From Arcobacter sp. LA11 (GTDB lineage Bacteria > Campylobacterota > Campylobacteria > Campylobacterales > Arcobacteraceae), in the NCBI RefSeq assembly GCF_001895145.1, contig NZ_BDIR01000003.1:62001-126000 (forward strand): DNA of 64,000 nucleotides, written 5' to 3'. The stretch's first letter is position 1. The number at the start of each line of letters is the position of its first letter. A program made the position numbers and the translations under genes. The notes beneath the pieces are model-generated. The model was not told where the DNA came from. It ran no database searches and saw only the letters and a program-made list of their open reading frames with translations. Shown here piece by piece: positions 5,015 to 9,795 of the stretch.

Positions 5015-6211
5015 ATGGGACAAACTTATCAAGAAGCTATAGAAAACTCAAATATTGTTTCTAAAACAGATATAAGAGGTGTTATTACTTTTGTAAATGA
5101 TGAGTTTTGTAAAATTTCTGGTTATTCAAAAGAAGAACTTCTTGGAAGTAACCATAATATAATTAGACATCCAGATATTCCAAAAGAGGCTTTTGAATCT
5201 CTTTGGAATACAATTCTTTCAAAAAAACCATATAAGACAACTGCGAAAAACCTTTGTAAAGATGGTTCTACTGTTTACTTAAATACTACAATAACACCTA
5301 TTCTTGACAATAATGATAATATAAAAGAGTTTATTGCAATTCGTTATGATGTTACAAAAGAAGTTGAGTTAAAAAAAGCATTAGAAAAGAAAGATGAAGA
5401 GCTAGAAGTATTAAATAAAACATTGGAACAAAGAGTATCTGAACAAACTGCTCAACTATTAGAGTTAAATCAAACACTAGAACAAAGAGTTCAAGTAGAG
5501 ATAGCAAAGAATAAAGAGAAACAAAAAATGCTTTTTTGGCAATCTAGAATGGCAAGTCTTGGACAAATGCTTGCAAATATTGCACATCAATGGAGGCAGC
5601 CTCTAACTGAACTTAGTTTGACAATGTTTAATATTAAGAAGAGTGCAAAAAACTGTAATCCTGAAAAACTTGATCAATATTACAAAGAATCATTAGGAAT
5701 TATTGAAAATATGTCAGAAACAATTGATGATTTCACAAACTTTTTTAATCCAAATAAACCTAAAGAGAAATTTTTTATAGATTATGCAATTGATGATGCT
5801 TTATTGATTACTAAAAAGCTATTACAAAGAGAAAATATTTATATAAATAAAGAGTTTGAAAAAATTGAAGTCTTTGGAGTTTTAAATGAATTTTCGCAAG
5901 TTATAATAAATCTTATACAAAATTCTAGTGAAGCTTTTAATAGTAATAATATATCTGACAAAGAAATTGATATAAAAGTTTATAAAAATGAAAAAAATGT
6001 TTTGATTTTATATTCTGATAAAGCTGGTGGAACAGATAATTTAGATAAAATATTTGAACCATATTTTACAACTAAGCACCAAAGTAATGGGACAGGCCTT
6101 GGTCTTTTCATGTCTAAAATGATTATTGAGAAAAGTTTAAATGGAATAATTGAAGCAAAAAATTGTGATGGTGGATTAGAGTTTAAAATTAAAATACCTT
6201 TAGGAGAATAG
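5015..6211 (+). CDS. Cytosolic PAS-domain sensor histidine kinase
   Basis: A 398-residue soluble kinase. Residues 5-115 form a PAS domain containing NHNIIRHPDIP, close to the motif of the FAD-binding PAS of Aer-type energy-taxis receptors, so redox sensing is possible. Residues about 118-170 are a coiled coil with repeated TLEQRV units. The H-box reads IAHQWRQPL with the phospho-acceptor predicted at His191, and the ATPase domain ends with GTGLGLFMS near residue 358. The usual DxGxG box is altered to DKAGG. No membrane segment is present. It lies 13 bases after hemB and its stop abuts the start of the response regulator, so the pair is co-transcribed and cognate by position. The signal is unknown. 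Confidence 0.9.
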   Translation: MGQTYQEAIENSNIVSKTDIRGVITFVNDEFCKISGYSKEELLGSNHNIIRHPDIPKEAFESLWNTILSKKPYKTTAKNLCKDGSTVYLNTTITPILDNNDNIKEFIAIRYDVTKEVELKKALEKKDEELEVLNKTLEQRVSEQTAQLLELNQTLEQRVQVEIAKNKEKQKMLFWQSRMASLGQMLANIAHQWRQPLTELSLTMFNIKKSAKNCNPEKLDQYYKESLGIIENMSETIDDFTNFFNPNKPKEKFFIDYAIDDALLITKKLLQRENIYINKEFEKIEVFGVLNEFSQVIINLIQNSSEAFNSNNISDKEIDIKVYKNEKNVLILYSDKAGGTDNLDKIFEPYFTTKHQSNGTGLGLFMSKMIIEKSLNGIIEAKNCDGGLEFKIKIPLGE

Positions 6212-6901
6212 ATGTCAAGTGATGAAATTTTATTAAAAGAGTTAAAAATACTTTTTGTAGAAGATGAGGTAAATATTTCTAAACTATTAAAAGATGCCCT
6301 TGCTGATTATTTCTTTTCATTCACTGTAGCAAATAATGGTGAAGAAGGTCTAGATAAATTTAAAAAAGTAAATCCTGATATTGTAATCACTGATATAATG
6401 ATGCCAAAGCTTGATGGTTTAGAAATGACAAAAAAAATCAAAGAGATAAATGAAGAAATACCAATTATTGTATTAAGTGCATTTTCTGATAAAGAAAAAC
6501 TTTTAAAGGCAATTGATATTGGTATTACAAAATATTTTATTAAACCTTTTGATCCAGAAGAAGTACTAGAATATCTTACTTTCTTAGCAAAAAAATTAAA
6601 TAAACATAGAATCATTTGTTTAAATAAGCATTTTAGCTTTGATAATAATACAAAGAATCTTTTTGAAGATGATACTTTTGTTAATATAACAAAAAGAGAG
6701 AAACAATTTATATCTTTATTAGTTGAAAATAAAAAAGATATTGTAACAGCAAAGTTAATAAAAACGAAATTATGGCCTGGTGAAGATGTTACAGATGAGA
6801 GATTAAGAACTTTTATTAAAAGGTTAAGAGCAAAAACGGCTAAAGAATTAATTAAAAATATTCCAGGACAGGGATATTTAATTTCTCCAAACGATATTTA
6901 A
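6212..6901 (+). CDS. OmpR/PhoB-family response regulator
   Basis: A 229-residue regulator. Residues 10-125 are a receiver domain with acidic residues Glu17-Asp18, phospho-acceptor Asp61 (VITDIMMPK) and the conserved lysine in YFIKPF near residue 111. Residues about 135-229 form a winged-helix DNA-binding domain ending GQGYLIS, the usual closing wing motif. The start codon follows the kinase stop directly. Targets cannot be read from the sequence. The 3' end overlaps the end of nrdG on the opposite strand by 24 bases, so the two transcripts are convergent and overlap. Confidence 0.92.
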   Translation: MSSDEILLKELKILFVEDEVNISKLLKDALADYFFSFTVANNGEEGLDKFKKVNPDIVITDIMMPKLDGLEMTKKIKEINEEIPIIVLSAFSDKEKLLKAIDIGITKYFIKPFDPEEVLEYLTFLAKKLNKHRIICLNKHFSFDNNTKNLFEDDTFVNITKREKQFISLLVENKKDIVTAKLIKTKLWPGEDVTDERLRTFIKRLRAKTAKELIKNIPGQGYLISPNDI

Positions 6902-7549
6902 ATCATTATTCAAACTGTTTAAATCAAATACTTTAGTTGAATTTTCTAAGTTTGATAGATTTTCAACTTCTAAAAACTTTTGTATATAAAAGTTGTCAGT
7001 GTAAGTATTTTCTACTAAAATCTTTTGCATAGTATTTATGTCATCTACATCTAACAAGTCATTATGCAAAGTTGTTCTTACTTCAAATTTACAATCGCTA
7101 GATTTTAGAATTTTTAAACTATCAATAAACTCATCATACAATGAACTTTTTGTTATATCTTTATATTTGTTTTTTGGTGCTTTAAAATCTAAAGCTACAT
7201 AATCTAGTAAATAGTTATCTAGTAGTTTTTTTAATAGTTTAGGATTACTTCCGTTTGTATCAAGTTTTATTTTAAAACCTAGGTTTGTTATATTTTCACA
7301 GATTTTAAATAAATCATGAGTAGTAGCTTCTCCCCCACTTAATACAACTGCATCTAATAAGCCAATTCTTTTCTTTAAAAATGAATATAAATCATTTAAA
7401 CTATAGTTTCCTTCTTTTGATTTAACAATATCAGGATTGTAGCAATAAAGACATCTCATGTTGCATGATGAAAACCATACAACACAAGATAAGTGATCTT
7501 TATAATCTGTAGTAGTAAACTTTGTTATACTATATATTATGTTTTTCAA
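6878..7549 (-). CDS. nrdG: Anaerobic ribonucleotide reductase activating radical SAM enzyme
   Basis: NrdG uses a 4Fe-4S cluster and SAM to generate the glycyl radical on NrdD. The cluster motif is CNMRCLYC (CxxxCxxC), followed by LSGGEATTHD, a GGE motif for SAM binding. I place the start at TTG 7549 (reads MKNIIYSITKFTT), preceded by AAGAAAGAG. An in-frame TTG at 7588 would add 13 residues that lie entirely inside the preceding small gene. With the TTG 7549 start the product is 223 residues and overlaps the glycyl-radical ORF by 20 bases, so all three nrd genes look translationally coupled. Confidence 0.88.
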   Translation of the reverse strand: MKNIIYSITKFTTTDYKDHLSCVVWFSSCNMRCLYCYNPDIVKSKEGNYSLNDLYSFLKKRIGLLDAVVLSGGEATTHDLFKICENITNLGFKIKLDTNGSNPKLLKKLLDNYLLDYVALDFKAPKNKYKDITKSSLYDEFIDSLKILKSSDCKFEVRTTLHNDLLDVDDINTMQKILVENTYTDNFYIQKFLEVENLSNLENSTKVFDLNSLNNDLNIVWRN

Positions 7550-7688
7550 TAAACTTAACTCTTTCTTGATGTTCACCTTTTTTACCAATATTAAAACTTT
7601 CTACTGGTCTATGGTATCCCATAACTCTTGTATAAACAATACACTTTGTTCTTTTTTCTTTTAATTTCTCAGGCTCTAAGCTTTTCAT
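7530..7688 (-). CDS. Separate glycyl-radical domain of class III ribonucleotide reductase, 52 aa
   Basis: Frame from ATG 7688 to TAG 7530-7532. Residues 21-44 contain RVMGYHRPVESFNIGKK and then QERV, which match the C-terminal glycyl-radical loop of class III NrdD (general form RVxGYxRPVxxWNxGKxxEFxDR); the radical glycine would be Gly24. The preceding nrdD ends without this loop. The two frames overlap by 20 bases in different phases. A strong AAGGAG lies 7 bases before this ATG, inside the nrdD 3' end, so it is translated as its own polypeptide. It presumably docks onto NrdD as the radical-bearing subunit, much as GrcA/YfiD supplies a spare radical domain to pyruvate formate-lyase. No other reading of this frame seems plausible. 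Confidence 0.85.
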   Translation of the reverse strand: MKSLEPEKLKEKRTKCIVYTRVMGYHRPVESFNIGKKGEHQERVKFIEKHNI

Positions 7689-9795
7689 TTTTTGTCTCCT
7701 TATTATTTAATTCTTCATTTAATATTTCTTGATCACAAATTGGACAATATTCATACTCTCCATTTATATATCCATGTTTTGGACATATTGAAAATAGAGG
7801 TGTAATTGTAATATATGGCAATGTATAATTTGAAATCACATTTTTAACTAACTTTCTACAAGCTTCAGTTGATGAAATTTTCTCTTTCATATATAAATGA
7901 AGTACAGTTCCACCAGTATATTTACCTTGTAAGTCATCTTGTAAGTCTAAAGCTTCAAAAACATCATCTGTTAAGTTTGCAGGAAGTTGAGAAGAGTTTG
8001 TATAGTAAATATTTTTACCAAATCCTGCTTGTAAAATATCTGAATATCTTTTTTTATCTTCTTTTGCAAACCTATATGTAGTTCCTTCTGCTGGTGTTGC
8101 TTCAAGATTATATAAGTTTCCTGTCTCTTCTTGGTATTGCACCATTCTTTCTCTCATGAAATTTAGAATCTCAGTAGCTAGTTGTATCCCTTCTTCTTTT
8201 GCAATATCATATCTTTTTTCAGTAAAGTTAACTATCATCTCATTAATACCATTTACTCCAATAGTAGAAAAATGATTGTTAAAACCAGGAAGATATCTTT
8301 TTGTATATGGGAATAAACCTCTATCATATAATTCGTTTACAAAAACTCTTTTCTTCTCTAGTGTAGATTTTGCTAAATCCATTAATTCAACTAGTCTTTC
8401 CATTAAAGCTTCTTTATCATCTTTATAAAGATATCCAAGTCTAGCCATGTTTATTGTTACAACTCCAATACTTCCTGTCATCTCTGCACTACCAAATAAT
8501 CCACCACCACGCTTAAGAAGCTCTCTTAAATCAAGTTGTAATCTACAACACATAGATCTTACATGACCTGGTTTATATGCATCTTCATTTGGTACTAGTT
8601 TTCCATTTTCATCTTTTATGTATTGACTACCAATGAAATTTTGAAAATATGAAGAACCTATTTTTGCCGTGTTTTCAAATAAGATATCTGTATTTTCTCC
8701 ATGCCAATCGAAGTCTTCAGTGATATTTACAGTTGGAATTGGGAAAGTAAATGGTTGACCTGTTTTATCACCCTCTGTCATTATTTCATAATATGCTTTA
8801 TTAATCATATTCATCTGTTTTTGAAAATCTTTATATGTCAATTCAGTTAAAGATTCATGACCTCTTTCTTTAGCTGATTCTAATAACTCTTCATCTTCAA
8901 TATCAATAAATAAATGTGCTTGGTTTTTTGTTGGTATTTGATCAGCTAAATCTCTTGGAACGGTCCAATCAATTGTGATATTTGTAAAAGGACTTTGTCC
9001 CCAACGTGCTGGTACATTTAAATTGTAAATAAAACTTCTAATATTTTTCTTTACTTCAGAATAAGATAATTTGTCTTTAAATACATAAGGTGCTAAATAT
9101 GTATCAAATGAAGAGAAAGCTTGTGCTCCGGCCCATTCACTTTGTAAAATACCTAAGAAATTTGCCATTTGACCTAAGGCTTCTCTAAAATGATTAGGAG
9201 CATCACTTTCAACTCTTCCTCTTACTCCATTAAATCCTTCATCAAGAAGAACTCTTAAACTCCATCCTGCACAATATCCACTTAAACAATCTAAATCATG
9301 AATATGATAATCTGCATTTCTATGAGCATAGCCTTCTTCTTTTGAATAAATTTTGTCTAACCAATAGTTTGCAATTACTTTTCCTGCACTATTGTTTATT
9401 AACCCTGCATGTGAATATCCAGTATTTGAATTAGCTTTGATTCTCCAATCTGTACCATTTATATACTCTTCTATAGTTTGAGTAGAATTAATATATGTTG
9501 TATCATCACTTAGCCCTAAGATTTGTTCTCTTTGCATTTTGTGCATGTGTCTATATAACATGAAAGATTTCATTACATCAAAATATCTAGCTTTATATAA
9601 TTCTTCTTCTATAGCATCTTGAATATCTTCTACAGCTATTATTCTTTTCTTTTTTAATAATTCTATTACGTTTAAATATACTACAGAATCATAAGTAACA
9701 TGTGTACTTTTAAATGCTTTTTTTATTGCATCTTTAATCTTAAATTCTTGAAACTCTTCATTTGTTCCATCTCTTTTTAATATTTCATTTATCAT
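7669..9795 (-). CDS. nrdD: Anaerobic ribonucleoside-triphosphate reductase, large part lacking the glycyl-radical loop
   Basis: A 708-residue class III reductase that makes dNTPs without oxygen. Residues 1-90 are an ATP-cone allosteric domain (opening INEILKRDGTNEEF). The ten-stranded barrel core follows, including SMCCRLQLDLRELL and GSIGVVTINMARLG. The C-terminus carries a metal-site-like CPKHGY...YCPIC, which normally precedes the glycyl-radical loop. The protein then ends after about 20 more residues with no RVxGY motif. The missing motif is in the overlapping 52-codon gene at 7530-7688. Order is nrdD, radical ORF, nrdG. RBS AAGGATAATAA precedes the ATG. Confidence 0.93.
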   Translation of the reverse strand: MINEILKRDGTNEEFQEFKIKDAIKKAFKSTHVTYDSVVYLNVIELLKKKRIIAVEDIQDAIEEELYKARYFDVMKSFMLYRHMHKMQREQILGLSDDTTYINSTQTIEEYINGTDWRIKANSNTGYSHAGLINNSAGKVIANYWLDKIYSKEEGYAHRNADYHIHDLDCLSGYCAGWSLRVLLDEGFNGVRGRVESDAPNHFREALGQMANFLGILQSEWAGAQAFSSFDTYLAPYVFKDKLSYSEVKKNIRSFIYNLNVPARWGQSPFTNITIDWTVPRDLADQIPTKNQAHLFIDIEDEELLESAKERGHESLTELTYKDFQKQMNMINKAYYEIMTEGDKTGQPFTFPIPTVNITEDFDWHGENTDILFENTAKIGSSYFQNFIGSQYIKDENGKLVPNEDAYKPGHVRSMCCRLQLDLRELLKRGGGLFGSAEMTGSIGVVTINMARLGYLYKDDKEALMERLVELMDLAKSTLEKKRVFVNELYDRGLFPYTKRYLPGFNNHFSTIGVNGINEMIVNFTEKRYDIAKEEGIQLATEILNFMRERMVQYQEETGNLYNLEATPAEGTTYRFAKEDKKRYSDILQAGFGKNIYYTNSSQLPANLTDDVFEALDLQDDLQGKYTGGTVLHLYMKEKISSTEACRKLVKNVISNYTLPYITITPLFSICPKHGYINGEYEYCPICDQEILNEELNNKETKNEKLRA

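Follow-up and report, generated by a model that had tools for sequence, protein, structure and literature searches.

A predicted two-chain class III ribonucleotide reductase whose glycyl-radical loop is separately encoded and also occurs alone on phages and plasmids

Class III ribonucleotide reductase (RNR) in Arcobacter sp. LA11 (Campylobacterota) is encoded by an nrdD gene that is divided in two. In the 64,000-nt stretch of DNA that we analysed (hereinafter the window; RefSeq assembly GCF_001895145.1, contig NZ_BDIR01000003.1, positions 62,001 to 126,000 of the forward strand, renumbered from 1), the nrdD product lacks the glycyl-radical loop, and the loop is supplied by a 52-codon gene that overlaps the end of nrdD and lies ahead of nrdG. 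The division is conserved across the phylum, and the small gene also occurs by itself on phages and plasmids. Glycyl radical enzymes are usually described with the radical glycine in the large chain, and their cleavage by oxygen is irreversible. We consider that the observations as a whole are probably best explained by a class III RNR of two obligate chains, the radical subunit of which is separable and phage-borne.

The glycyl-radical loop is encoded apart from the NrdD body

The nrdD gene of the window (7669..9795, minus strand; 708 aa) encodes an ATP-cone (PF03477, residues 5-86) and the catalytic barrel of the enzyme, the NRDD catalytic domain being present, and its product ends in ...CPKHGYINGEYEYCPICDQEILNEELNNKETKNEKLRA without an RVxGY motif. 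It stops 21 residues past a CPKHGY...CPIC motif resembling a zinc knuckle (C671-C687; 7735..7785, minus strand), whose residues C671, H674, C684 and C687 are invariant in 28 aligned rows and are predicted to bind metal. The small open reading frame (ORF; 7530..7688, minus strand; 52 aa, MKSLEPEKLKEKRTKCIVYTRVMGYHRPVESFNIGKKGEHQERVKFIEKHNI) lies in a different frame and overlaps nrdD by 20 nt. It has translation signals of its own, an AAGGAG Shine-Dalgarno sequence (7696..7701, minus strand) located within the nrdD reading frame 7 nt upstream of an ATG, and its RVMGY motif contains the predicted radical glycine, Gly24 (codon 7617..7619, minus strand).

In a Pfam scan (expectation value E up to 1), the family PF13597 is split cleanly over the two ORFs: the body covers profile positions 2-529 (E 5.1e-160) and the small ORF positions 531-562 of 562 (E 3.5e-7, above the gathering score). 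The RVxGY loop that characterizes class III RNR is thus found only when the two chains are taken together, the body alone being devoid of it. Downstream, nrdG (6878..7588, minus strand) completes the order nrdD body, small gene, nrdG, and its product matches TIGR02495 (NrdG2) with E 2.8e-56 and 189.9 bits against a cut-off of 131.15, so that a dedicated radical S-adenosylmethionine (SAM) activase is present. From its listed start, TTG 7588, nrdG overlaps the small gene; an in-frame TTG at 7549, read from the sequence, is an alternative start that would give a 20-nt overlap, the same as that between the small gene and nrdD.

These results bear out what the original prediction, a model's reading of the window, had proposed: a 708-aa NrdD that ends soon after CPKHGY...CPIC and lacks RVxGY, at coordinates that hold, and a loop on an overlapping, separate 52-codon gene with its own AAGGAG and ATG ahead of nrdG. 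The comparison of the 52-residue product with the NrdD profile that it had suggested is the PF13597 match given above.

The split is conserved in Campylobacterota

The small ORF was matched in 37 of 60 relatives. Across a phylum sample of 397 genomes the body was matched in 187 and the loop in 185, the latter being more than chance would give. Both parts are present in 184 of the 187 body-bearing genomes, the others being two in which the body reaches the contig end with no loop match (G387, G365) and one with a broken match (G169). In 181 of these 184 genomes the loop lies on its own open frame, and in three (G113, G184 and G285; loci L099, L101 and L102) it is fused to the body. Calls were made from the open-frame column of the family searches and by direct reading of the loci; five same-frame genomes with an unclear frame column were checked on the DNA itself, where stop codons part the body from the loop. 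A fused status was rejected for G061, G210 and G343, and for G694 of the class sample described below, since stop codons separate the parts, and all four were counted as split. Of 135 distinct loci that show both parts, 131 are split. The original prediction had allowed for a sequencing error should relatives carry one continuous frame, and had raised the question of conservation across Campylobacterota; the relatives show the split.

The geometry of the junction varies. Relative frames 0, 1 and 2 occur 12, 25 and 16 times in 53 Campylobacterota loci and 24, 27 and 27 times in 78 others, and the body-to-loop distance in Campylobacterota ranges from -31 to +139 nt. The best start of the small gene is ATG in 52/53 Campylobacterota loci and in all 78 others, and a Shine-Dalgarno sequence of at least 5 nt precedes it in 50/53 and 65/78, respectively, counts that are favoured because starts were chosen partly by Shine-Dalgarno score.

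The two parts can also be unlinked. Seven genomes of one genus code (G126, G213, G237, G244, G254, G301 and G400), picked because the small gene and the body were listed far apart, carry the small gene far from the body and, in all seven, next to nrdG. The body in these genomes likewise stops past the knuckle, and the stretch retrieved for it contains neither a loop nor nrdG. Separately, we observed that G386 (L315), rated 99% complete, has a loop gene and nrdG and no nrdD body match, and that G264 has the nrdD-loop-nrdG operon twice (L078 1608-4764, and L079), the body of one copy being in two overlapping frames and the two loop genes differing by one residue, upstream of the likely start.

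A cysteine eight residues before the predicted radical glycine (Cys16; codon at window positions 7641-7643) is kept in 136 of 138 body-loop pairs, and possibly serves in docking, in a disulfide or as a metal ligand. We considered a zinc staple in which Cys16 of the small chain is the fourth ligand. A CxxHG knuckle and this cysteine are paired in 134 of the 138, but L122 has the histidine without the cysteine and the T. maritima sequence has no cysteine at the corresponding place, so the staple remains only an idea.

Split and fused genes beyond the phylum

The arrangement extends beyond Campylobacterota. Plasmids with body, loop gene and nrdG are found in Cupriavidus necator H16 (pHG1), Bradyrhizobium, Sulfuricurvum kujiense (itself of the Campylobacterota), Azospira, Sulfuricystis and Shinella; on pHG1 a 676-aa body is followed, after a 142-nt gap, by a 66-aa loop gene and nrdG. 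Acidiphilium and Actinomyces plasmids carry fused genes. When named genomes were searched with an alignment of the small proteins, the best 80 of 581 loci comprised 77 with a body upstream, three with no body in the locus and none fused, a set biased towards the split form because the query was the small protein.

A less biased view comes from an evenly drawn sample of the class to which a Pseudoxanthomonas genome belongs. PF13597 was matched in 29 of its 281 genomes, of which 21 are split, six fused and two partial (G663 and G614). The split is therefore the majority form in this class, at 21 of the 27 classifiable nrdD-bearing genomes, the partial matches being left outside the 27. A tree of the bodies (a quick search with 44 split and five fused rows and no known root) nests the fused rows among the split ones with at least three changes, in one direction or the other, on well supported branches; its ratio of split to fused rows is biased because most of the proteobacterial rows had been retrieved by using the small protein as the query.

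Several loci have further peculiarities. At G584:C2:195825-198649 and G746:C37:5125-7733 a single long open frame (1021 and 1567 codons) holds the PF13597 body match in two parts, a pattern that an intein-like insertion would produce, and the loop gene is still separate. On the Azospira sp. I09 plasmid pAZI09 (L318 1-6111), NrdA, nrdD body, loop gene, nrdG, NrdB and an integrase follow in this order, class I genes thus flanking a split class III operon. G694, in addition to its split operon, has a second loop match (G694:C3:18350-18451) on a different contig.

Phages and plasmids carry the loop gene alone

More than one loop match was found in 14 of the 185 loop-bearing genomes of the phylum, and in 11 of them an additional loop gene lies apart from nrdD: G028, G126 (two), G161, G218, G247, G251, G253, G254, G274, G300 and G381 (two). 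A broken piece (G170), a duplicated operon (G264) and an alignment fragment (G396) were not counted. Several of the extra copies have phage neighbours. Holin, spanin-like and tail-assembly genes surround one of the G126 copies, and similar ORFs the other; the G254 copy follows a tail-fibre gene; those of G161 and G247 adjoin a GH108 endolysin; in G300 the order is spanin, holin, loop gene, endolysin; and the G253 copy looks alike by sequence. Locus L112 was judged from its likeness to L113, without a phage-family scan. Other solo copies neighbour a transposition-protein, a methyltransferase or an unknown gene. At L088, L108 and L113, a metabolic gene is seen inside phage lysis cassettes, beside GH108 endolysin and holin or spanin genes. 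Allochromatium plasmids likewise carry the loop gene alone, no nrdD body being found in the whole A. vinosum plasmid record.

Scans of IMG/VR gave 36 loci and the best 80 of 163 confirmed loci, several viral contigs being fetched by both. Among 115 viral loci scored, 110 showed a loop ORF and neither a body nor nrdG within the locus; the others are one full split operon (L122), three loci without the motif and one long open frame. Whole viral records, which may be fragments and of which none is rated at least 90% complete, matched PF13597 in the tail only in 49 of 50 (positions 521-562 at the widest; 35 above the cut-off), and none of the 50 has an NrdG2 match above the cut-off. Neighbouring viral proteins (67 and 60 scanned, first 25 families) include endolysin, holin, thymidylate synthase, integrase, portal and terminase. 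Across 88 distinct viral sequences the T of TRVMGY is conserved at 98% and the other positions are invariant, as expected because the motif was part of the search and filter. The ratio of nonsynonymous to synonymous substitution rates (dN/dS) is about 0.28 in these 88 sequences, vs 0.17 in 131 host sequences.

The PHROGs family matched is phrog_4132, annotated as of unknown function. In an annotated phage collection the small protein of the window found no match at E up to 0.1, and a proteobacterial phage query, at E up to 1, yielded weak matches to three records, of which two carry a class III RNR annotation. The spread beyond Campylobacterota and the phage copies formed no part of the original prediction.

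Predicted placement of Gly24

The solved structures related to the enzyme by sequence are class III reductases. The only PDB matches of the small-protein profile are to residues 616-645 of T. maritima NrdD (weak, E 0.27-0.28); in this protein the body match ends at 615 and the small-profile match begins at 616, with G621 beneath the loop glycine. We also modelled the body and the small chain as one polypeptide, joined artificially for this purpose only (predicted local distance difference test score, pLDDT, 75.8; predicted template-modelling score, pTM, 0.71). The VIA alignments of the joined model end at model residue 733 = T4 587, 739 = T. maritima 634, 748 = P. copri 733 and 745 = 753 of pyruvate formate-lyase (PFL). 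If ungapped to these ends, they place Gly24 (model 726) on T4 G580, T. maritima G621, P. copri G711 and PFL G734, the positions given for the radical glycines in published descriptions of these enzymes. The register is shared by five of five T4 rows, four T. maritima rows (a further one, 4u3e_B, is off by one), one P. copri row (the sole one reaching the loop) and three PFL rows, as read from alignment range ends only. The docking in the joined model supports the placement of Gly24, short of proof. The original prediction of a radical glycine on a small separate polypeptide agrees with this: the predicted radical glycine is separately encoded, and Gly24 aligns with known radical glycines.

A proposed two-chain enzyme and its alternatives

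We propose that nrdD, the 52-codon gene and nrdG specify a class III RNR of two obligatory polypeptides and their activase. That the two chains form a functional enzyme is, judging from the sequences, very probable. The body would give the ATP-cone, the barrel, the finger-loop cysteine and the zinc knuckle, and the small subunit the inward loop with Gly24, docked beside the finger loop. NrdG would generate the radical on Gly24, from which it would move to the body cysteine and on to the substrate. Oxygen is described in the literature as cutting glycyl radical enzymes at the glycine. A Gly24 chain cut in this way might be swapped for a fresh 52-residue chain and the 708-residue body kept; because the radical chain is separable, replacement would not require the body to be made again. 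Such replacement of the small chain after oxygen damage is plausible; whether chain exchange or repair is a selected function we regard as an even question. A phage could, on the same scheme, supply the radical chain alone for use with the host body, and the phage copies would be the closest to a true spare part. More tentatively, and at somewhat less than even confidence, the loop genes may form a separable glycyl-radical subunit family of class III RNR, in which a phage or plasmid copy plugs into the host NrdD body, is charged by host NrdG, and restores or raises deoxyribonucleoside triphosphate (dNTP) synthesis once oxygen or infection has put the resident chain out of action, that is, a spare-part system for a non-PFL enzyme.

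Several points weigh against this proposal. Fused genes, in 3/184 phylum and 6/27 class genomes, nest among split ones in the tree, so separation is not indispensable. A second loop match was found in none of the nine fused genomes of the two samples, so that neither sample offered an example of a spare accompanying an intact enzyme. The docking is partly imposed because the modelled chain was joined by hand, and the register of Gly24 rests on range ends in the T4, T. maritima, P. copri and PFL rows compared. Among the 50 whole viral records, G437 yielded no match to PF13597 at the limit used, and G433 has nine sub-threshold radical SAM matches. The dN/dS value of the viral sequences is lowered because they were chosen by their conserved motif.

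The strongest alternative, which we judge possible at about one chance in three, is an inert split, in which the chains form a permanent complex as if fused and fission is tolerated with no gain in exchange or repair. Overlapping or closely spaced genes would permit co-translation, and the occurrence of fused among split forms, with the changes on well supported branches noted above, looks as if the state drifts. Neutral drift is nevertheless a poor fit to the predominance of split genomes in both samples (181/184 and 21/27), to the seven genomes in which the small gene and nrdG stand apart from the body, and to the solo copies on phages and plasmids. Alternatively, the phage copies might act against the host enzyme, inhibiting or retuning host RNR during infection either as a decoy or as an altered subunit. 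The position of the gene among late lysis genes in several prophages, odd for early dNTP supply, speaks for such a role, but the loop is kept in 88 distinct viral sequences (the motif being part of the search), dN/dS is low, and two of 67 scanned neighbours match thymidylate synthase; we think it unlikely.

A programmed ribosomal frameshift joining the two frames is very improbable. The junction has an SD-like (Shine-Dalgarno-like) AAGGAG and an A-rich run, and the +1 frameshift of prfB likewise has an SD-like sequence at its junction. The frame relation of the two genes, however, takes all three values (0, +1 and +2), stop codons part the same-frame cases, and unlinked genes cannot be joined in this way; a prfB-like frameshift gene, with a constant frame relation at a fixed junction, is accordingly rejected. 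A sequencing error in one continuous nrdD, for which the mere 20-nt overlap in the window might speak, is refuted: the same arrangement recurs in 181/184 genomes, all three relative frames occur, distances in Campylobacterota span -31 to +139 nt, and seven genomes have the two genes far from each other.

Comparison with known systems

The proposed two-chain enzyme resembles the fused class III NrdD proteins of T4, E. coli, T. maritima and P. copri (PF13597) in the family that spans both pieces, the ATP-cone, the zinc knuckle, the RVxGY-type loop and the NrdG activase. Those enzymes, however, have the glycyl-radical domain as the C-terminal part of a single chain, whereas here the gene is cut between the zinc knuckle and the loop.

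The original prediction had likened the small protein to GrcA/YfiD. YfiD/GrcA of E. coli and Y06I of phage T4 are small free-standing glycyl-radical proteins, so a phage-encoded version exists there too; they receive their radical from the activase that serves a large glycyl radical enzyme (PMC8683613), and they mend oxygen-damaged PFL. As an analogy the comparison stands, phages and plasmids carrying the piece alone as T4 carries Y06I, but the resident small protein is neither a spare for an intact enzyme nor a GrcA homologue. A single loop gene and a loop-less body are present in the window genome, with no extra copy beside an intact enzyme, and the small chain would be the regular radical carrier of class III RNR. 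In the Pfam scan the small ORF matches PF13597 and no other family, and PF01228, the PFL-type Gly_radical family, has no match in the window genome at E up to 1, at which control genomes matched. The PF13597 tail match and the lack of a PF01228 match place the small protein outside GrcA homology, and a link to other glycyl radical enzymes in the window genome was dropped. In PMC8683613, spare parts for other glycyl radical enzymes are considered possible, with only YfiD and Y06I validated.

Two further precedents are less close. The split class II enzyme NrdJa/NrdJb of Pseudomonas is also an RNR of two chains with a detached C-terminal module (PMC9669993), but it is B12-dependent and the detached part is not a radical carrier. 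Fragmented phage nrd genes, nrdD among them, are split by introns or endonucleases (PMC3653736); such cases are mobile-DNA interruptions or unexplained breaks in single phages, in contrast to a conserved cut at the radical loop.

Annotation and consequences

RefSeq already names the small gene nrdD, and so do five of the six plasmid records, the Bradyrhizobium record calling both pieces "anaerobic ribonucleoside triphosphate reductase". In the open-licence literature we found no paper that describes a conserved nrdD split at the loop, or the phage copies. The NrdD of Pseudomonas aeruginosa is given as 76 kDa in a published account. The pHG1 nrdDG genes of Alcaligenes eutrophus were reportedly described by Siedow et al. 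in 1999 with an NrdD of 76.2 kDa, which would fit the 676-aa body. The separate chain explains proteins that are annotated twice as nrdD, or as of unknown function in PHROGs. Most nrdD-bearing genomes of the Campylobacterota and class samples have a class III reductase whose predicted radical chain is separate, and the same chain occurs on phages without the body, suggesting that the radical part of anaerobic RNR may be replaceable or mobile. Body-only constructs from organisms with a split nrdD would be without the radical glycine. Repair by subunit exchange becomes directly testable.

Tail to tail with nrdG, window positions 5015-6901 (plus strand) contain, by eye, a PAS-type sensor histidine kinase and a response regulator gene.

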